Part shown: positions 28,116 to 56,432 of the stretch, piece after piece
Layout of the letters: every line of letters begins with the position of its first letter
Position numbering within the stretch: position 1 is the stretch's first letter
Assembly (NCBI GenBank): GCA_964036195.1
Contig: OZ038460.1
Span: 12,155,504 to 12,219,503, forward strand
Length of the DNA: 64,000 bases
DNA from: Sphaerolaimus hirsutus
Lineage: Eukaryota; Nematoda; Chromadorea; Monhysterida; Sphaerolaimidae
Reading direction: 5' to 3'
Translations under genes and position numbers: made by a program
The notes under the pieces: generated by a model
The model's database searches: none
What the model was told of the DNA's origin: nothing
Seen by the model: the letters and a program-made list of their open reading frames with translations, nothing else

Positions 28116-30160
28116 TAGTGATGGAAAAAGCGCCAGGCTTTCGGCGCCAAGCGCCAAAAGCGCCATGGCGCTTTTCTGACCCCGTCGCCAAGCGCCAATG
28201 GCGCCAGAGCAAAATGGCGCCAAGCGCCAAAAGCGCCATGGCGCTTTTCTGAACCTCAGCGCCAAGCGCCAATGGCGCCAGAGGGTAATGGCGCCAAGCG
28301 CCAATAGCGCCAGCGCCAAAAAAATTGTTCTACAATTTGATGGTAGAAAAATGAGTGCATAACTGTGAGTGACGTACCGCTGAAATCATAGTAGTCTATT
28401 GAACTTTATTGCCTTGAACTAAATCGGGGCAAAATTTTTCAAATAATCACTCTGGAGCAGGGTTGGCAAAATCTCAGAAAAAAATAAAAATAAAATAAAA
28501 ATAAAATGGAATATTCAAGAATAAAATAAAATAAAATAAAATGGAAAATTTAAGAATAAAAATAAAAATTGTATAAAAATTCAAATTTTTGTAAAAATTT
28601 TGTAAAATTGTATAAAAATTCGTATTTTTTGTAAAATTGTATAAAAATTCATATTTTTTGTAAAATTTTATCGTGTTGCTTGAGTTTCTACCTGTTTATT
28701 CATGGATCTGGGAGCAGTCCCAAGTGTAAAGTGTCAAATGTCATGTAAAATGTGATGCAAAGTGTCAATTGTCATGACAAATGTAAGGTAAAGTGTCATG
28801 ACATGTAAAAACTAAAGTATCAATTGTCAAGCAAATTGTGTCCAAATCTTATGTTTTATATCTAAATCTTATGTTTTGTATCCAAATTATGTTGTTGTTG
28901 AATCCAAATCTTATGTGAACATTTGGATACAAAAACATAAGATTTGGGTACAAAACATACTATGGATACAATAACACAAGATTTGGATACACAATTTACA
29001 CTTTGCATGACATTTGTCATGACAATTGCCACTTTGCTTGAAATTTGACATGACACTTGACATTTTGCATGACAATTGACAGTTTACTATACATTTGTCA
29101 TGACAATTGACAAATTGCATTACATTTTACAAATGTGCCCAGCACACTCCACCAGTCCTTCTACTGAAAATGCAAACCATTCTCATCAATAATTGAAACT
29201 TTACACTTGCAGCTAGCTAACAATACATACTGCATGCAACTTTTGAAAAGTAAGGGAAAAATTTGTCACAGGTTTTTCATCTATAGGTCTAATTATAACA
29301 TTTTTCTGGCCTTGCATGCATTATTCTGATTTTTTTGTAAAATTTTTGTACAATTTTTGTAAAATTTTTGTAAAATGTGTCATTTTATTTTATTAATGAC
29401 TTTTGGGAATAAAATAAAATAAAATAAAATGAAATAAGAATAAAATAAAAATAAAATAAAATTTTTATACAATTTTTATACAATTTTACTAAAATGAATT
29501 TTTATAAAACCAACCCTGCTCTGGAGAGATACATATCTGGTCGATTTGGTGTGGGGGGTGGGTGGCTCGAGGGATAGTAGCCTAAAATTTAGCCTCAGGT
29601 TAGATAGATACATAGCTGAACGGCCCGGGAATAGAGAGATAGCTGGAGCATTTGTTGGGGGGTAACCCCCCCCCCCCCCCCTCCAACCCCCGCCAGACTG
29701 AACCCCTGATTAAACCCCGCCAGACTGAACCCCTGAGAAAAAATTAGGAGCAAAGCACAAAAGGGGATTTACCGCGATTTTAACACCTCTGCTTTTATTC
29801 AATGTATGCATCTATTTATATAAAGTCTACCATAATATTAATCAATATTTATTCAGTTGCCTCAAAATTGATCAACTGCGGTGTCGATTTCACCATATTA
29901 TAACAATTTTTTCATTATCATGGTTGGCGCTTTTTTGGCGCCATTTAAAATGCCGGCGCCAGGCGCCAATAGCGCCACCAGAAAATGGCGCCAAGCGCCA
30001 AAAGCGCCATGGCGCTTTCTCAGACCCTAGCGCCAAGCGCCAATGGCGCCAGAGCGTTTTAGCGCCAGAGCGTTTTAGCGCCACGCGCCAAAAGCGCCAT
30101 GGCGCTTTTTGCTTTGGCGCTAGCGCCAGGCGCCAGCGCCATGGCGCTTTTCCATCACTA
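28116..30160. mobile_element. hAT-like element, TAGTGATG family, with AAAAGCGCCATGGCGC arrays
   Basis: Ends TAGTGATGGAAAA and TTTTCCATCACTA with a perfect 8-bp duplication CTCAAGAT. GCGCC arrays lie at 28126-28320 and 29930-30150. Inside are a remnant of the CAGGGGTC/GATAGATAG family and, within that, the 1061-bp element at 28458-29518. Confidence 0.88.
28458..29518 (+). mobile_element. 1061-bp hAT-like non-autonomous element, copy 1
   Basis: Ends CAGGGTTGGCAAAAT and ATAAAACCAACCCTG with a perfect 8-bp duplication CTCTGGAG, which fits the nTnnnnAn pattern of hAT targets. Subterminal AATAAAATAAAA arrays and an inner palindrome of TGTCATGACAAATG units are present. Copy 2 at 37910-38970 has the same length in opposite orientation. 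Confidence 0.92.
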
Positions 30161-37909: not shown

Positions 37910-38970
37910 CAGGGTTGGTTTTATAAAAATTCATTTTAGTAAAATTGTATAAAAATTGTATAAAAATTTTATTTTATTTTTATTTTATTCTTATTTCATT
38001 TTATTTTATTTTATTTTATTCCCAAAAGTCATTAATAAAATAAAATGACACATTTTACAAAAATTTTACAAAAATTGTACAAAAATTTTACAAAAAAATC
38101 AGAATAATGCATGCAAGGCCAGAAAAATGTTATAATTAGACCTATAGATGAAAAACCTGTGACAAATTTTTCCCTTACTTTTCAAAAGTTGCATGCAGTA
38201 TGTATTGTTAGCTAGCTGCAAGTGTAAAGTTTCAATTATTGATGAGAATGGTTTGCATTTTCAGTAGAAGGACTGGTGGAGTGTGCTGGGCACATTTGTA
38301 AAATGTAATGCAATTTGTCAATTGTCATGACAAATGTATAGTAAACTGTCAATTGTCATGCAAAATGTCAAGTGTCATGTCAAATTTCAAGCAAAGTGGC
38401 AATTGTCATGACAAATGTCATGCAAAGTGTAAATTGTGTATCCAAATCTTGTGTTATTGTATCCATAGTATGTTTTGTACCCAAATCTTATGTTTTTGTA
38501 TCCAAATGTTCACATAAGATTTGGATTCAACAACAACATAATTTGGATACAAAACATAAGATTTAGATATAAAACATAAGATTTGGACACAATTTGCTTG
38601 ACAATTGATACTTTAGTTTTTACATGTCATGACACTTTACCTTACATTTGTCATGACAATTGACACTTTGCATCACATTTTACATGACATTTGACACTTT
38701 ACACTTGGGACTGCTCCCAGATCCATGAATAAACAGGTAGAAACTCAAGCAACACGATAAAATTTTACAAAAAATATGAATTTTTATACAATTTTACAAA
38801 AAATACGAATTTTTATACAATTTTACAAAATTTTTACAAAAATTTGAATTTTTATACAATTTTTATTTTTATTCTTAAATTTTCCATTTTATTTTATTTT
38901 ATTTTATTCTTGAATATTCCATTTTATTTTTATTTTATTTTTATTTTTTTCTGAGATTTTGCCAACCCTG
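37910..38970 (-). mobile_element. 1061-bp hAT-like non-autonomous element, copy 2
   Basis: It looks base-for-base like 28458-29518 in inverse orientation and is flanked by the 8-bp duplication TTCTGGAG. It begins 46 bases upstream of the inferred start codon of the SLC22-like gene A, so it lies in that gene's 5' UTR or promoter. Confidence 0.92.
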
Positions 38971-42946: not shown

Positions 42947-43321
42947 GGCCGCCATTCACGCTGATGTGTAACAGTTTCTATCACGATCTGAAGTCGGGCA
43001 CGTTCCGTGGCACTTCGCAGGGCGGCCGCGTCGATCATGGTCCCGTTGTATGACGCGCATGCGAATGAGCAATGACAGCGGCGGCGGGCGGGCATCAAGT
43101 GGTTTCGGAAGGCGGCGGGATCGATTACCCTCGACCGTCGCTCGGCTGCGGGCGGCCGTAATTTGGCGGCACCCGCTGCGCATCCAGCGCTCGTCCCCCG
43201 CGCCGCTGAAACCACTCATATTGTTCATGCTTGTCGCTGTCGGGCGCAAAAACTCACTCGGGTCGCCACTGGAGAGCAAACATATTGACATAGATTTATT
43301 TACACTGATGTTACGGCGACC

Positions 43322-44453
43322 ATGAGTATACTTGGAGCAATAGTGATTGTGGGCGTGTTTTTCCGAACCGGTATGTTTTGAACATATCCACGAGATTACG
43401 CGTGGTTGCTGACTAAATCGAACTTCCCCATGGCGATCCACGCAGGCCACGCACAGAAAACGATACCAAAAGATGAAACGCGACACGTGAACGTGCAGTG
43501 GATCGAACCGCACAGCCCCCAGAGTCTTATCAGCGCGGTCTACTTGGCCACGAACAACAGCATCAGTTTGCTGTGTTTGCTGGACGACGCTTACACGAAA
43601 TTGAACCCAGACAACCAGCTGTTACAGTGGTCGCTTTGAACGTGTTTTACACAAGCTCGTACAATTTGCACATGTAAAACTAAATGTGTAAAGTCATATC
43701 TGCGCATCTCATTCTGCCCGACGTCGTCATAAAAGTACGTAAGCAAAATTGGTCATGATGTCAGTGCAGCTGAACGATATGCATTTGTCTCGACTTTGCA
43801 AAATTGGTTTTGCATGAGGTATTGTACTGGCTTACAAATGTACTGCCTTACAATGACTATCATGCTTACACACACTACTGTTCTACCGAAATTTCAAAAA
43901 AGATTGTGAAACTAATGCGTCATGCAGTTTTAATTTCACAGGCACGTGAAGCCGTTCGAAAACAAAAACGAGACATTGCTCGGCAAGGCCGTGCAAAACG
44001 CTATCGGTTTCGGTGAGGCCAAATTGATCAAAGCCAGGGTCAGCTCGAGCTTCGGCGGCATTTACACGTGCGCGGGCGGCGGCGACAAGCTCCGGTGCCA
44101 GTCCCAGACCCTGTAAAATGCCCTGTAAAATGTCAAATGTCATGCAAAGTGTCAAAAGTCATGTAAAATGCCCTGCAAATAAACCGAGTTGACCCATGAC
44201 TTTTGAAACTTTGCATGACATTTGACATTTTACACGGCATTTTACGGGGTCTGGGACTGCCCCCAGGTCGAAACCGGTCCACGTTTATGTCGTCGGTCAG
44301 TGAAGTATGGAAATGTGAGATGTTTGCTCTACTGCAGCTCTATTTTATTGTGTTACATGTAGGGACTGTTATCAGAAAATGAGCGTTTGAGCGGCTTAAC
44401 GACCGTACTTTGCAGTGCATGAGCACTTTCGCCGCGAAACGGGCTCGCGTTGA
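43322..44453 (+). CDS. Small secreted single-Ig-domain protein
   Basis: Exons with continuous phase: 43322-43370, 43446-43629, 43942-44100, 44267-44295, 44416-44453, giving 152 aa. Exon 1 encodes a hydrophobic signal peptide (MSILGAIVIVGVFF). The Ig fold has C60, W78 (codon split by an intron) and the YTC cysteine C121, ending with the G-strand KPVHVYVV. There is no transmembrane segment: the last exon adds a short basic tail and a stop, so the product should be secreted. The 166-bp intron 44101-44266 is a miniature transposon whose ends supply GT and CAG; LRCQ just before the junction comes from its edge. If that intron is not removed, the protein stops after CQSQTL and loses the G strand. 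I cannot name the gene. It lies just upstream of two basigin-type genes and may be a diverged relative. The last exon is the least certain. Confidence 0.65.
44101..44266 (+). mobile_element. MITE acting as an intron (introner-like)
   Basis: Inverted ends AGTCCCAGACCCTGTAAAAT and ATTTTACGGGGTCTGGGACT (44100-44258), with GTCAAATGTCATGCAAAGTG units between. The predicted donor is CA|GTCCCAG and the acceptor TGCCCCCAG|G, the acceptor being the element's own right tip. Removal joins two halves of an Ig domain in frame. Confidence 0.7.
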
Positions 44454-44493
44454 GATGTTTCGAAATATTTAATTTTCGTCCGCGCAAAATAAG

Positions 44494-44991
44494 ATCTGAT
44501 AAAAAATGGCTAAAGCCAACTAAAAGTGGACACTGCACCTAACCATGTGTATGCTTTTGAATGCACAAAAGTAATATATCATATACCATGCCATTTTCTG
44601 ATTGAGCTATCAAAAGATGTATATCAAGGGAAATGTACACAAATGCTAATAATATAGGCCATCAACACAGCAAACTGCATCACAAGAAACAATTTCATCA
44701 AACTTTTGCATGGCAGCGTGAGCTGTGTCAAAGTGCTGCAAACATTAAAGATACAAAAAGCTCACGCTGCCATGCAAAAGTTTGGTGAAATTGTTTCTTG
44801 TGATGCAGTTTGCTGTGTTGATAGCCTATATTATTAGCATTTGTGTACATTTCCCTTGATATACATCTTTTGATAGCTCAATCAGAAAATGGCATGGTAT
44901 ATGATATATTACTTTTGTGCATTCAAAAGCATACACATGGTTAGGTGCAGTGTCCACTTTTAGTTGGCTTTAGCCATTTTTTATCAGATAT
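44494..44991. repeat. Near-perfect 500-bp hairpin
   Basis: Two arms of about 240 bases, starting ATCTGATAAAAAATGGC and ending in its complement, surround a loop of about 20 bases near 44747. No ORF. The RNA would fold into a long duplex. Confidence 0.85.
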
Positions 44992-45117
44992 ACTTCTTTT
45001 TGAGGGCCACAGGCCCAAAAGTTTATAAGTTATTGCAAATCAAGCAAATGCCAAATGTGGCAGTGAGCAATACAATCTATAGTCAAGAAGAAGCCAAATA
45101 CTAAGATTCAAAAGATT

Positions 45118-46362
45118 TTCAACCTGACATTTAGAACCTGAAAGTTATCACTTGACATTTATGACTTGAAATTACCCACTTGACAATAACTTGACATAAA
45201 CCACTTGACATTTATGACTGAATGGCATCACTTGATATTTATGACTTGACATGAACTGCTTGCCATTTTTTCACCTGATAGTTTTCACTTGACATAAACA
45301 ACTTGACAGGTATCACCTGAAAATTGTTACTTGACATATTACTTGACATTTGACATGACATTTATCACTTGACATTAAACTTGACATTTCACCTGAAATT
45401 TATCACTTGACGTTAAACTTGACATTTGACATGACATTTATCACTTGACATTAAGCTTGACATTTAACTTGACATTTGACTTGACATTTCACTTGAAATT
45501 TATTACTTGACATTTCACTTGAAATTTATCACTTGGCATTTGACTTGACATTTCAATTGAAAGTTATCACTGTATATTCACCTTGACATTTATCACTTGA
45601 AATTTATCACTTGGCATTTGACTTGACATTTCAATTGAAAGTTATCACTGTATATTCACCTTGACATTTATCACTTGACATTTGACTTGACTTGACTTTA
45701 GACTTGACATTTATAAGTTGACATTTGACTTGATATTTGATCACTTGACATTAAACTTTACTTTGATTAACTTTGACTTGACATTTCTCACTTGAAATTT
45801 GACTTGACATTTATCACTTGAAATTTGACTTGACATATGACTTGATATTTGACATTTATGAGTTGACATTAAACTTGACATTTCACTTGAAATTTGTCAC
45901 TTGACATTTGACTTGAAATGTGTCACTTGACATTTGACATGACATTTGACATTACATTTCACTTGAAATTTATCACTTTACATTTGACTTGACATTTGAC
46001 ATGACATTTATCACTTGACATTAAACTTGACATTTCAATTGAAATTTATTGGTTGACATTTGACTTGAAAGTTATCACTTGAGATTTGACTTGATACTTT
46101 ATCACTTGATATTTTATAACTATCTATCACTTGACATTTATCAATTGACATTTCACTTGAAATTTATCACTTGACAATTATCACTTGACATTTCACTTGA
46201 AATCTACCACTTGACATTTATCACTTGATATTTGACTTGATATTTTATCACTTAATATTTTATCACTAGACATCTATCACTTGACATTTATCACTTGACA
46301 TTTGACTTGACATTTATAACTTGACATTTGACTTGACATCAACCACCAGACATTTATGACCT
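45118..46362. repeat. TTGACATTTATCAC degenerate array
   Basis: About 1.2 kb of imperfect units alternate ACTTGACATTT, ATCACTTGA and GACTTGACA. The period is not fixed. No protein reading frame runs through it. Confidence 0.85.
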
Positions 46363-47426
46363 GATAGTAATCAGCATGCAAGGTCACATGCTCAGTATCA
46401 CATAAAGCAGTAGTTCAGGCATGTTTGCGCATTTTACACAAAATAAGCAAACTTGAATAACTTTTGTAAATCTGTACCAAAATTGCCAAAAATTGGCTCA
46501 TTTGAAAGCTCTAGTCATGGCACACATCAGCAAATTTTTTTTATTGCCCCATTTGTATTCAAATTTTAAATTTATTGAGGTTTGAAAATTTCAAACAGAT
46601 ACCGTACCAAAGTGGGCGGAGCCTGTGAAAAAAAAATCCCGAAAATAAGAAATGGCATCATATTCTCTTTCAAATGAGCCATCAACCATGAAAATCGGTC
46701 GTGTTTCAAGGAAGTTATTGCAGTTTGAAGATTTTCGGGAGAACAAGAACAACAACAACAACAACAAGAACACTACTTGAAAAAGAAAATGCGTAATAAC
46801 TTCCTCCGAACTCAACCGTTGGATCTGAAAATTTGCATGGTGGTACTTTTCGACACGGGCTTTTTAATGGTGCAGTCGGTTCTGCACTAGCGCATTGCGT
46901 TCCGAAGTTATTGCGATTTTAAATTTGCGATTTCCGCATTTTGGTGTGTCTGACCATATTATGGGTGGGTCGCTTGCGCCCTCCCTCGGCAGCGAGGGAT
47001 GGCGCTGGCGCGCCCACCCGATTAGGATATTTTCGGATTTTTCCGCACGGACACTTTTCATCAAAGTCCATGAGCAATCTGATTCCGAACGTTTTTCGGG
47101 TGAATCAACACCAAAAAAGCTTAAAAAAACCGGACGTGCAAATTGTGAACCACCCCTCACCTCACGCCACTCGCTGCCGCCGCTGCACCAGTCGCTGCTG
47201 CGGCGTGGGCGCGGCACGAAAATCAATAAACTTCCCTCGCTGCTCGGAAGTTTTCTGTGCGAGTGCTTTATAGCGAAGTGCTAGCACACCGATGCTATCT
47301 AGTGTTTTCGGTGGTCGTTCCAATACCGGATGCCGTCGATCAATTTCAGCTTTGATGTTTTCCGATATTTTCGTGCTTTCGATAACCTACGACGATTTCA
47401 CAATCACCCCAGGGCTCTAAACCAAA
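46363..47426. other. Probable 5' region of the basigin gene
   Basis: AT-rich to about 46850, then GC-rich (46950-47230, for example CGGCAGCGAGGGATGGCGC). No coding exon is recognised; a promoter or 5' UTR exon is plausible but unproven. Confidence 0.35.
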
Positions 47427-50400
47427 ATGGAGCTGCAGCCGTGGAGCCAAGCTTCGCTACTAGTCTCCATTATTTTCTGTACAGTTCTGCTGTGTGGCAT
47501 TTCAGCCGAGAACGCCATCGAAACGTACTACCTCTCCAAATTGGGCAGTGAACGCAAAGACCGGGTTTTCTCCATCCCTTGCGGATCGGCGCCGCTTTCC
47601 GAAGACGACACGTTCGCGTGGACGCACGATGGCGAGCCGGTCGATTTGCTGAAAGACACCAGAGTGCGTTTTGGGTTGTGTCGGTCTTGTTTTGCCATGT
47701 TTGGCACTGTGCCAGGAATGTGTTTCGATAGTGGAGATATTCTGAAGTTTTTGTTTTTGACTTTTAGGTAGAAGAATCTTTCGCTCTGGAGACGCTGTCT
47801 TCATCAAGTTAAATTAGACATGTAATAGGGTTGGTAAAATTTTAACCGCTTCAGTATTGGGGTTGGGGGGGAGGTAACCCCTAAAACGCTCCAGCGATCT
47901 ATCTATCCACGGGGCTTCAACAGACAGTCCCGCTCAAAACTCCTGGATCCGCCCGATTGTTTGGATCTGATATATTTTCTATTCTCCCTGTCCTTTCCCC
48001 TGACACCCTTTCTCCACATTTCATTCAGGGGTCTGTAAAGGGGGGGGCTGGGGGCAGCGGTTTTCAGCTATATACATGGTTATATACCTATTTTTAGCCA
48101 TTTTAAACCAATTTTTGGCTTCTTGTCACCTATTATTTACGATCTTTCCCCCTTCTGCATGCTTTTCCATGAAAAAGCATATATATTTTGCCCCCACGAG
48201 CCACCCCCAAGACCCCCAGCCCCCAAAATTTTTTTTCAGCTATCCATCCCTTCGGAGGAGCGATCCATTAACTATCCAGCCCCCGCGAGGGCCAAAATCC
48301 TGGAGGGTGACCCCTGATTTCAATAACCCCCACAGGTGTCGATCGCGGGTCAAGCGGCCGACGGCAGCGGCGAGGGCAGCGCGGAGAGCGCGGAGAGCGC
48401 GGAAGAAAATCCGGAGAGCGACAGCAAGCAGCGCGGCCATTTGACCGTGACGCACGCGGATGAACTTGACGCGGGCTATTGGAAGTGCACCGTGGAGCAC
48501 AAGGGCGGCGCTGAGGATCAGTATATTTACTTGTTGAAGTGTGAGTTTGGTCGTTTTTCAGGGTATTAAAAATGTTGGTTGGTTGGGCCTTCACACACTA
48601 GTTGACATAAAAATTCGTGTCGACTGAATTCGTGTTGACTGTTAATTGGCGCACCGCACACTGAACTTTTGCGTTCAGCGTTCTAATGTTTTTGCACGCT
48701 GAACTACAAACGCTGAAATCAATGTCTATAGAACACAACATTTTTGAAGCGTAAAATTTTTTACACCGCGGCCCCCCCCCCCGTTCGACGGGCTCCGTAT
48801 ACAATCCGCCCCCCCCCCCCGCTCAAAAATCCTGCGTACGTCCCGGCTTTCAGTTTATATCTGTTAAGTATGACGCATTTGAATTTTTTTCGTGTTATTT
48901 AGTTGAGATTCAGTTGACACAAATTTGCGATGTCGACTAGTATCAACTGGTGATATTGTTTTTAGTGATTGAGAAGAATTGGTCGCTGACTGCTCAAGAT
49001 AAATATTCTTTGAAACTTGTACAAAGTGAACTGCGCAAAAAAATTTCACTCCAACACGCAGTGCTTTCCCATGGCCGCCCACACACGATCTCACGTGTTC
49101 ACGATCATACAATCTGTTTGAAATAATATACCTCACTGTGCCCCGCTCTATATGCGACGTGATAGCAACCCGACGGTTTATCAGCCCCAACCAAATTTCA
49201 GCGCCGCCAAAAGTGACACGCGCCGTCAAATCCGTCACGGTGACCGAGGGCGATATCGCGAAACTGTCGTGCAAGGTGTACGGCAACCCGCTGCCCACCG
49301 TCTACTGGACCAAGATGGCAGAGTCCGACTACGACGAGGAGAGCGAGCACCTGGAACAGGCGAAAAAAGGTTGCTTACATTGTTGTTGTTGTTTTTTCGT
49401 GTTTGGAAAGTGTGGCTGGAAATTTTTCGGGATTTTGCGGTCCCGATCCCGAAACATCAAAAAAACGAAACCCGATTCCTGTCCCGAAAATTTTCAAATC
49501 CCAATCCCGATCCCGAAAAGACAATTCCGTTTGAACCCTTGTTGGCTCCCATTTTTTCCAATCGTTGAACAGTGTTTTTGGGAAATGTTAGGGTAAGATG
49601 ATGGTGTTCTAAATGCTGGAAATAAGTGGCACGGCGGCGCTGGTAATTGTCTCCTGGATAACTTCTGTGATCACTTTCATTTTCAGTGTGAGTAAATAAC
49701 ACTGATCAATATGTACATGACAAAAAATATTCACATTTCAAAGGAAACGCACCACACACAGACATTGAGTTTTTCGTTACGTTGACACAGACATTGAGTT
49801 TGCGTTGAGTTTTTCTGTACGCGAGAGCGTAACTCATACATTAAAAAAAAATTGGATGAAAAAATCGGCCCACCAAAAAAAAGTTTGGAGTTCTGATTAC
49901 ATAAATTTCTGTCCAACGGTCAGGTGTCATCCCAATTATTAGGAGCTTGTATCAATTGAACCTGAAACATTCGCACTGCTTTACTTTTCCCGTGCCAAAA
50001 CTGAGTACCTTCATGTGAACTTCAGTAATGTCATCTACCACCTCTCCAGTAAAAATCGTGTCCGGCGATCACCTCACCTTGTCGAAAAACGACCAGAACA
50101 TAGAGGGCGCCGTGCTGCACATCAACGACACTGAGAAAGACGACCGAGCTTACTACTTCTGTCACGCGGAAAATGCCCTCGGCTTTTCCCAGGATGTAGC
50201 GATGCTGCGTGTCAAAGGTGCGGTAATGGTCAAATGACTAGTGTATAGGGTTCAAACGATATGACTTTTCGATATCGATATTCGATATTTTTTTCTGAAA
50301 CTCGATATCGATATTCGATATTTTTTTCTGAAACTCGATATACGATATCGATACGATATGGAACCTCGATATCGATATTAGAAATAAAAAATTGTCGATA

Positions 50401-53121: not shown

Positions 53122-56100
53122 ATGCGAATATGTTCGTTTCTCCCGGTGCTTCATTTCGGTGAGTTTTCAAAGGGGCAGTCCCAAGCCCTGCAAAGTGTTA
53201 AGTCGTGTGTCAAATGTCAAGTAAAATGTCAATCAAAACAAAAAGAAAATATTTTATTACTGAACTTTTTGCATGACAAGTGACAAATTTGTATGACATT
53301 ACATTTTACACTTTACATGGCTCGGGATCGGCACCCAGCAGACTTTCTCTTGACTACACCAAACACTCGTATCTAGGGTGTCAATTTTCCGTTTTCCGTT
53401 TCCGCTTTCCGCAGGCAAATTTTTTCTCCGTTTCCGTTTTCTGGCTGCTAAATTTTTTTTTCGTTTTTCCGGCCCATTTTCCGTTTTCCGGCTAAATTTT
53501 CAGTTTTTTCGTCTTTTTTCCATTTTGCCAACTTTTTTTCATTTTCCAGCTCAATTTTCTGTTTTCTGTTTCAGCCAAAATGGTAAACATGCATGCAAGT
53601 TCTCAATTATGTGATTTTTCCTATTTCTAGCAAGATTTCTGCAAATTTTTTTATTTCCGGATAAATTTCTGCAAATTTTTTTCCGTTTCCAGCAAAATTT
53701 CAGTAATTTTTTTCCGTTTCCGGCATAATTTCAGTAAATTTTTCCATTTCCGTTTTCCGGCCTTTCATTTTTCCATTTCCGTTTTCCGGCAAGTGCAAAT
53801 TTTTTTCCGTTTCCGTTTTCCGGCAAGTGCAAAATTTTTTCCGTTTCCGTTTCCGTTTTCCGCCAAAAATTTTTTGTTGACACCCTACTCGTATCTATCC
53901 ATTTGTCACCCGCATCAGCATCGTTGGCGGCGACCGTCGACGTGTCCATCACTCTCACCTACAAACTAGATTATAGTCACAGACTGGATGCGCTGCAAGT
54001 GGACCGGACCAATGGACATCTAGATGTCCGGCAGGACGTTGTCCACGCGCCTATTGATGTCGTGTTTGTTTTAATTGCGTTTTTAGCGGTGTCTTCTTTT
54101 AGCGGGTCTTCGGTGGCGAGGCTTTTTTGATGAGAGATGTGTCGTTTTTTAGGCTGCCTGGAATATTTGATGGATGCGTTCCGCAGATGGTGGTGAAGAA
54201 CAGCGAAGCTTATCTACAGCTTTCCCAGAGCAAAAACGAGGTAAGTGCGTCCGGTGTTCATAAATTTGTTGCATATTCGTGAACTTTCGTGCGACCTCAT
54301 TTGAATGAGGTGGCCTGTGAGCAGGCATAGTGTAGGCACAATAGACTTAATAGAAGTAATGAAACCTATGTAAATTGGACGACGTAGATACCTATATATG
54401 CCTCGAATATTTCGCGAATGAACACTAGGTTATTGATAGTAATTATATCTTTCGTAGTTAGATAAAATTTTAAAATCCCTCGTATAAAATCCCCGTCACA
54501 CTGAAACGAAGAAGTACCAGGGGGACCTAAAAATATATACGAAATTTGTATGATCTTTTTACCCTTCACCCACACCCTCAGACGCACCTGCACTTCGAGT
54601 ACGGCGTTCTATCCATCTGCAACACCTACACCTGCTCCAACAACCAGGACAACATAACCGTGAATCTGCTTTGCCCGCCGCTCTTGGCTGAGAGCTGGCG
54701 CAAGGGGGCGAGACTGCGCAAAGCCGACTATGGCGCACCGCACACTGAAATTTTGCGTTCAGCGTTCGAACGTTTTTGCACGCTGAACTACAAACGCTGA
54801 AATCGATATTTAAACAACCAAACGTTTTTAAGCGATAAAATATTCGGAATTTGCAATATTCAGTGAAATTCGCATGCTAGCCGAATTTATACGCTTCAAA
54901 AACGTTGTGTTTTTCAGATTTTGATTTCAGCGTTTGTAGTTCAGCATGTGAAAACGTTCGAACGCTGAACGCGAAATTTCAGTGTGTGGTGCGCCAATGG
55001 TACATTTGAGGTGCTGGGGCGGGTTTCTGATTACGCCGGCAACCATCCGTTTGCATTGCACTCTGGTTCGTTTTGGATGGGTGTTGTTTGGTTTGAGGTG
55101 ACGCACTAGAAGTTGCCGTGAGAGCCCACACGCACTAGTTGACATTGCAAATTCGTGCCAACTGAATGTCAACTAAATAAGACAAATAATTTTAAAACCA
55201 CCACATTCAAGAAACAATGAAAATTAAGTGTACTATAAAAAATACCAGGCTCTATCACATAAAAAAGTTGAAATCACATAATTAACCAGAATTCAGTTGA
55301 CGTGAATTTTGATGTCAACTAGTGTGTGTGGGCCCTTAGTTATCAAACTGTCTGCTCGCCAGGCGACTCTGTCGAGCTGCACTGCACAGTGTTCGCCTAC
55401 CCGCCGCCCAATATTCGATGGTACTTCGATGGGAAGCCTCTTAGTCTGTTTTTTTTTAGCTGAAATTTTTTTTCTTTTTTTCTCGCTGAAAAAATATTTC
55501 TCAAAACAGCCACCAACATCCGTCGTTCCATTTCAGATGTCTCTGACAAATTTAATGTGACGTGGGGCGACTCGAGCGACGGGCGTATATCCATCTCCAC
55601 GCTGCACATCAGCGATTTCAGCTCTGCCGACCGCGGCAGGTACACCTGTGACGCTTGTCGCGGAGAAAACATTTGCCGCAAAGTGTACACTCTCAGATAT
55701 AGAGGTGAGTTGGTTTTTGGATGAGAATCGTTTGAAATGGATTGTCGGTTGCGTTACAAGAAAGTGTTTTTTGATTTTGATTTTGATCAAAAATCAAATT
55801 TATTTTGATCTCTGAAAAACGCAGAGAAAATATAAATAAATATAGATGAGAATTCCCATAAAATAAATATAATTAAACCGTTTGAAAAAACCTGAATATA
55901 ATCATATATAAGATTTTTCAGATTTTCTTATATGTAAAATATATATAAATCTCCCGAGATATTTAGAACGCTAATTGTCGGAAAAATTCAAGATGTGCGA
56001 ATGAGGTCGATTCGGTGGTGTTTGTTTTGGTGTGCGACATGCAAGGGTTGTGTATTTGATCGTCCTCTGATGGTAGTCCCATCTCCAAGTCCCACTATTG

Positions 56101-56432
56101 CTAGAGCAAGTCGTTACCACAGCCGCTAGCCCTGAACAAGTACTTTTTAATACTTGTTTGGTGCTCTACCAAGGTTCCATTGGTTCCACTCCCAGACCCT
56201 GTAAAATGTCAAATGTATGTAATGCAAAGTGTCAAACGTCATGTAAAATGTCTTGCAAAATTTGTTTCCGTTCATGTTTGACTTTAGCCCCAGGCACCCG
56301 TCAAATTTAACCAGGTTGCTTACAGGCAAATTCGGCTGGGTGTGGCCGGTGCTGGGCATTTTTGTCCTGGTTGTTCTACTCGCAATAATTTATGGGGCTT
56401 TCGAATGGAAACAGAAGCGTAAGCCTAGGTGA
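53122..56432 (+). CDS. Basigin-like Ig membrane protein, diverged paralogue
   Basis: Seven exons: 53122-53158, 53919-54058, 54187-54240, 54582-55065 (interrupted), 55363-55443, 55537-55704, 56326-56432. With 54731-54997 left out, the phases are continuous and give 267 aa. A short signal peptide (MRICSFLPVLHF) is followed by a diverged first domain with C90, C95 and C108 and the Ig-like signature ADYGTFEV. A standard Ig domain follows (C157, Y-T-C214, extra C217 and C223, N-glycosylation sites N177 and N183), then the span WVWPVLGIFVLVVLLAIIYG and a basic tail KRKPR. The WPVLGI opening of the span and the 168-base Ig exon match the neighbouring BSG, but the glutamate of the span is absent. A TGA follows at once (56430); AG|GTGAAA could also be a donor to a further exon. 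A 266-bp MITE inside exon 4 either breaks the gene or is spliced out. Inferred role: cell-surface adhesion or transporter partner. Confidence 0.7.
53172..53338. mobile_element. MITE, GGGGCAGTCCC family
   Basis: Ends GGGGCAGTCCCAAGCCCTG and GGCTCGGGATCGGCACCCAG, with AAATGTCAAGTAAAATGTCA units. It lies in intron 1 of the basigin-like gene and is related to the intron-forming copy at 44101. Confidence 0.7.
53374..53887. mobile_element. hAT-like MITE, TAGGGTGTCAA family, with CGTTTTCCGG arrays
   Basis: Ends TAGGGTGTCAATTTTC and TTGACACCCTA with a perfect 8-bp duplication CTCGTATC. The interior is TTTTCCGTTTCCGTTTTCCG units throughout. It lies in intron 1 of the basigin-like gene. Confidence 0.9.
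54731..54996. mobile_element. 266-bp foldback MITE inside a coding exon
   Basis: Inverted ends of about 75 bases: TGGCGCACCGCACACTGAAA and its near complement TTTCAGTGTGTGGTGCGCCA. It sits inside the TAT codon of an ADYGTFEV motif in exon 4 of the basigin-like gene. Reading straight through gives a stop within the left arm. A GC|GTTCGA donor at 54763/54764 and a TTTCAG|T acceptor at 54982/54983 would remove the core and keep the frame. A partial relative is at 48651-48735. Confidence 0.85.
55124..55336. mobile_element. MITE, GTTGACA/CACACAC family (copy 3)
   Basis: Ends AGCCCACACGCACTAGTTGA and TCAACTAGTGTGTGTGGGCC. It lies in intron 4 of the basigin-like gene. Confidence 0.75.
56186..56296. 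mobile_element. Short MITE, GGGGCAGTCCC family
   Basis: Left CCACTCCCAGACCCTGTAAA; the right end is worn (TTTAGCCCCAGGCACC). It lies in the last intron of the basigin-like gene. Confidence 0.5.

Follow-up and report, generated by a model that had tools for sequence, protein, structure and literature searches.

Introners are short repeats that turn into whole introns when they land in exons (Gozashti et al. 2022, PMC9860276). Within its coverage of animals and land plants, that 2022 survey describes them from two groups only, both of them animals. The same survey describes a Chrysochromulina class that brings its own 5' splice site and takes its 3' site from the duplication. In the green alga Micromonas, the introners IE-B and IE-D (25 and 6 members, with a preference for phase 2) are described as GT-TG introns (PMC3879977), and GT-TG splice sites have also been reported in human genes (PMC4176328). 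On the transposon side, the NuwaI group of PHIS (PIF/Harbinger-like) elements is defined by 5'-CWG-3' duplications. In the survey that describes the group it occurs in animals only, and its inverted repeats usually start with GGG (PMC4482050).

In this study, the window is a stretch of 64,000 nucleotides from the nematode Sphaerolaimus hirsutus (OZ038460.1, positions 12,155,504 to 12,219,503 of the forward strand), which lies on contig 16 of a 348 Mb genome of 762 contigs. An inverted-repeat element in the window splits an open frame. We believe that this element is probably a non-autonomous DNA transposon (MITE) acting as an introner, which would be removed exactly, together with one target copy. 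It resembles the introners described in PMC9860276 in its target duplications, its inverted repeats, and the combination of an own 5' site with a borrowed 3' site. It differs from the descriptions given there in its 3-bp CWG duplication, its 16-base conserved tips, which sit on a palindrome spanning the whole element, and its right ends both with and without AG. The likeness to Micromonas IE-B and IE-D is one of description and consists of the 5' GT and, for copies ending in CTG, the 3' TG; phase 2 is preferred there (PMC3879977), whereas phase 0 predominates here. Amoebophrya introner elements are similar in their 3-5 nt direct repeats at exon edges, their intron-folding inverted repeats and their non-canonical borders. 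Their splice dinucleotides are described as highly diverse (PMC7789003), whereas only GT-starting copies were resolved here and orientation matters. CWG duplications like those of NuwaI are present in our family, in which the window copy itself is CCG/CAG, and the 3' tip starts with GGG as in that group; in contrast, the 5' tip is GTG, and intron-making is absent from the NuwaI description in the available text of PMC4482050. In the literature searched, introner and harbinger were paired for fungi only, and introner and GT-TG for Micromonas only. Our verdict is that this would be a new family of a known introner kind, which a non-AG reading would turn into a variant.

The gene model around the element is as follows.

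43382..43629, + strand: open frame with a probable upstream exon (putative gene model), first half of an Ig-like domain; it ends with TG before the GT at 43630.
43630..43941, + strand: probable ordinary GT-AG intron, GT at 43630 and AG at 43940-43941; the preceding TG and G 43942 form a Trp codon.
43942..44094, + strand: exon in open frame, carrying the latter half of the Ig-like domain (YTC...DKLR).
44092..44094, + strand: left target-site copy CCG, probably an altered CAG.
44095..44263, + strand: element GTGCC...CCCC, a 169 bp hairpin with borders taken from comparison with other copies; its first two bases are the putative 5' splice site.
44264..44266, + strand: right target-site copy CAG, whose AG is the putative 3' splice site.
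44267..44295, + strand: putative exon continuation SKPVHVYVVG, possibly ending at the GT at 44296; otherwise the frame stops at 44303.

The inverted-repeat arms (44094-44163 and 44195-44264) are 70 nt each, with a complementarity of 93%. When folded as RNA, 44095-44266 formed a single long hairpin of -105.9 kcal/mol, whereas 200 shuffles averaged -35.7 kcal/mol (sd 3.5; z -19.9). Only the 5'-terminal GUGC and the 3'-terminal CCCCCAG fell outside the stem. The family has GTGCC at its 5' tip and, in inward reading, GGGGC at its 3' tip; because the two tips do not match, the element holds a GT, and GUGC and CCCCCAG stay out of the stem. The family consensus has two acceptor-like TTTTACAG words, and both are altered at 44228-44247 of the window copy (to TTTTACAC and TTTTACGG), by which cryptic 3' splice sites would be lost; the TTTTACAG words are often retained in other coding copies. 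A scan of 43000-45500 against Rfam gave no match at gathering scores. A second, longer inverted repeat lies just downstream and has identical 47-aa frames on both strands (44514-44657 and 44826-44969).

A first-pass annotation of this DNA had described an inverted-repeat element interrupting the frame. The element and the split open frame are real, but its size and borders are 169 bp at 44095-44263 instead of 166 bp. As that annotation had also stated, joining the two sides keeps the frame. SKPVHVYVVG follows in frame on DKLR. The better splice would run from 44094/44095 to 44266/44267 and give an intron of 172 bp (44095-44266). The joined codons are then CTC CG|G TCG AAA (LRSK), with zero element bases remaining. 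The first-pass annotation had placed the donor at CA|GTCCCAG (44100/44101), so that the CQ of its LRCQ would be protein derived from the element. This GT is present and in frame, and the Pfam Ig_2 profile matched only the LRCQ version of the join (E 0.0046, 17.6 bits; cut-off 27 bits). However, six element bases would stay in the transcript, and a better donor lies six bases to the left, where the outer GT gives LR|SKPV. At other sites, use of the outer GT recovers cyclin-Y, Na/K-ATPase and OSCP1 with no residues added. We therefore consider the inner donor, and with it the element-derived residues, very improbable.

The Ig label of the gene is weak, the profile match being below the curated cut-off. 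A C..W..YxC pattern is visible by eye. The region that had been taken for a single-Ig exon from 43942 holds only the second half of the domain, the first half being in 43382-43629. With the exact LRSK join Pfam assigned no family, and a PDB search with the gene product found no Ig match. A genome search for a paralogue or orthologue returned only the gene's own two exons, and none in the window was convincing. Another frame in the window (47421-47771) starts like a signal peptide and looks Ig-like; none of its Pfam matches exceeded the cut-off. Given the weak Ig support, the genome search without a paralogue and the low codon score of the window copy (2.9), the element could instead have broken a dead or fortuitous frame, with the Ig reading due to chance and no intron at all. 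The C..W..YxC pattern, the Trp codon formed across the first intron, and the exact frame continuity at the element speak against this, and we regard it as unlikely. On our main reading, the window gene would be expressed and the element spliced from its RNA.

The left target copy of the window element is CCG and the right one is CAG. The target was probably CAG, with a later A-to-C change on the exon side; this change would have been silent, as CTC AGG and CTC CGG both encode Leu-Arg. CCG as the original target was considered and rejected because it is scarce at both ends in the genome (38 left, 36 right). Of the 38 left-CCG copies, only 1 had an exact right CCG no more than 400 bases away, which together with this scarcity makes a CAG target with a later change the likelier history.

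The ends, duplications and copy number of the family were read directly from the genome. An exact 27-base left end, a pattern that requires only G before GTGCC, occurred 646 times genome-wide, and its reversed control 0 times. Of 1948 first-look candidates in a similarity search with the element, 40 were scored, and these gave at least 80 matches. Exact left ends were preceded by CAG in 686, CTG in 587 and CCG in 38 cases, and right ends were followed by CAG in 989, CTG in 732 and CCG in 36; the left and right totals are not comparable because the right-end pattern is shorter. The share of CAG was larger at right ends (p 0.031 against CTG and CCG together, p 0.053 against CTG alone). Among the relatives that had been named within the window, those at 56186 and 63204 were recovered by blastn, while the one at 53172 was missed at the threshold used and has similar tips by eye. 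Further relatives at 28725-29087 and 38341-38703 mirror each other in their order, which would fit the inverted duplication of a block.

After redundancy was removed, 104 copies were resolved: 54 CAG/CAG, 22 CTG/CTG, 7 CTG/CAG, 4 CAG/CTG, 3 CCG/CAG and 2 TAG/CAG (left/right target word), the remainder being 12 single types, 3 of them identical pairs. They were drawn from 120 of 122 loci, with two further pieces of the window (L009 and L010) omitted, and include only GT-starting copies. The sample of loci was not random: 60 stretches had been chosen for a left CAG, 20 for a left CTG, 30 by the 27-base pattern and 8 by similarity. Behind the 30 pattern-derived loci were 20 resolvable copies, including 9 CTG/CTG and 4 CAG/CAG. 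The target words matched as CAG/CAG or CTG/CTG in 76 of the 104 copies, with a finder that favours matching words. When the borders were fixed, 102 of 143 pairs had identical words, both strands being counted before merging. Exact ends were also paired on contig 1. The 59 left CAG ends had 16 partners with right CAG and 0 with right CTG, and the 71 left CTG ends had 12 with right CTG and 2 with right CAG.

Conserved genes were then read across copies of the element. When the element and one duplication were removed, homology continued across the join at ten sites, with the element in sense orientation at 10/10; these sites had been chosen by eye, and CAG copies were inspected on the sense strand first and on the antisense strand later.

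L016, rc 666, sense: OSCP1, CAG/CAG; Pfam match across the join.
L016, rc 1501-1680, sense: OSCP1, CTG/CTG; Pfam match across the join.
L113, sense: cyclin-Y, CTG/CAG; no gap at the join.
L117, sense: Na/K-ATPase alpha, CTG/CAG; no gap at the join.
L036, sense: BCKDHA-like, CTG/CTG.
L063, sense: STARD10, CAG/CAG; one-residue gap at the join.
L083, sense: COLGALT1, CAG/CAG; weak (E 0.0055).
L034, 195-365, sense: Srx-like receptor, CTG/CTG.
L008, rc 1157-1375, sense: GLUT-like transporter, CTG/CTG; Pfam Sugar_tr spans the join, with a gap near the join in the PDB alignment.
L008, rc 1502-1683, sense: the same GLUT-like gene, CCG/CCG; no gap at the join.

Pfam searches with 20 joined frames gave matches for 9, of which 6 spanned the join, and none for the other 11. 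In PDB searches with 8 joined frames, 6 matches spanned the join, 1 started at it (b4GalT), and 1 frame (SMYD-like) was without a match. The names GPATCH1, ANKZF1, SMYD and TMEM165, applied to some frames, are presumed identities to which we give no weight. The genes found (cyclin-Y, Na/K-ATPase alpha, GLUT-like and Srx-like) by themselves point to an animal host. OSCP1 matched a single locus in the genome and is intact over the stretch examined; the intron between its two elements is an ordinary GT-AG intron. An uninterrupted paralogue of the BCKDHA-like gene, with 43% identity, lies on contig 2. It demonstrates the empty form, yet leaves room for the interrupted gene being a broken copy. Similar sequence reaching both splice boundaries in many introns, one mark of an introner, is seen at these ten sites in a family of hundreds of copies.

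A codon model was trained on 18 sense cases, each held out when scored, and was applied to all 104 copies, with calls made at score 5 and margin 2. For the 86 copies outside training, 22 sense and 4 antisense calls were obtained (p 0.0005), and over 14 choices of threshold p ranged from 0.0002 to 0.039. One of the four antisense calls (L069) has a zinc-finger-like sense frame too, as judged by eye. L055 (CAG/CAG) is a possible antisense coding insertion: its antisense strand has a presumed TMEM165-like stretch beside the copy, and its left side is perhaps not exon. Counting training cases, 23 of 32 sense-scored copies were in phase 0. Since the element almost equals its reverse complement, the tips are the main difference between its two orientations, and the sense bias points to the GT tip. 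Orientation-free excision of the hairpin was rejected because it conflicts with the 22 to 4 bias. An insertion bias toward one orientation is a possible source of the sense excess. The earlier proposal that the element itself had made the intron is thus well supported for the family, by the ten restored sites and the sense bias, but not with the donor and the LRCQ residues proposed at the time.

We propose that the element inserts at CWG and duplicates this word. The 5' tip would supply GT, and the right-hand CAG copy would supply AG. Since the element begins with GT and the duplicated CAG gives a 3' AG, a sense copy in an exonic CAG would be a complete GT-AG intron. This intron would leave together with exactly one target copy, and the coding sequence would be unaltered. 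GT-AG borders made of element and target copy are present in the window and at five of the ten homology sites.

At the other five sites the right end is CTG or CCG, within conserved genes that are open apart from the element, so a copy would seem able to occupy a conserved exon without AG. These sense copies (L016, L008, L036, L034) are candidate GT-TG or GT-CG introns. With training cases counted as sense, the sense-coding share was 25/54 for CAG/CAG and 9/22 for CTG/CTG, a similarity which speaks against AG being decisive. Sense copies may therefore be removed whatever the right word (GT-AG, GT-TG or GT-CG), with the hairpin perhaps uniting the ends. Sense CTG/CTG copies in the OSCP1, BCKDHA-like, Srx-like and GLUT-like genes, and a sense CCG/CCG copy in the same GLUT-like gene, are in line with this, as are the CTG copies outside training (5 sense to 2 antisense at score 5, 8 to 2 at score 3) and the GT-TG precedents in Micromonas introners (PMC3879977) and human genes (PMC4176328). 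However, GT-TG is uncommon elsewhere, and CAG is more frequent at right than at left ends, as if AG were favoured. We hold such removal to be possible, with the balance against it. Cryptic TTTTACAG acceptors inside the CTG copies were rejected, since reasoning from the sequences they would leave 19 or 31 bases and shift the frame whichever of the element's first GTs is used.

Alternatively, the CTG and CCG copies in exons may be recent or heterozygous harmful insertions, and only right ends that are CAG, or have become CAG, act as introns. At the cyclin-Y and Na/K-ATPase sites, the left CTG codes for a Leu that solved relatives also have and CAG stands on the right, as though an AG had arisen there; the shared Leu suggests that the target was probably CTG and that the right copy turned into CAG. 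CTG/CAG pairs also outnumber CAG/CTG pairs (7/29 against 4/58; p 0.037, with at most 6 rows of other pairs dropped). However, the CTG/CAG pairs are not limited to coding copies, 2 being in the training set and 5 unclassified. CTG copies show the sense bias too, and they are not plainly younger: over 88 inner bases, differences from the consensus ranged from 7 to 22 in five CTG sense copies and from 6 to 41 in four more from training, and from 5 to 37 in 25 CAG sense copies. We give the harmful-insertion explanation close to an even chance. A third, more tentative proposal is that the element carries only the 5' GT, and that CAG, CTG or CCG are all usable as the distal border of a hairpin intron. 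Sense insertions would then be tolerated at once, and AG would be gained later by single changes in the right copy, a course suggested by cyclin-Y and Na/K-ATPase.

A PHIS-type DDE transposase that mobilises the element may be among the 163 matches to PF13359 (DDE_Tnp_4) in the genome. Many of these matches cover the same span and have 4 in-frame TGA, as might be expected of a young transposon family in which that stretch holds an intron or a common defect.

Introners have been proposed as drivers of bursts of intron gain and have rarely been seen in animals (PMC9860276). With over a thousand exact left ends in this genome, intron gain would be traceable at many ages. The palindromic body isolates the effect of the GT tip, and the antisense copies serve as a built-in control. 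Should splicing extend to the CTG and CCG copies, the family would also be a test of how strict the AG rule is.
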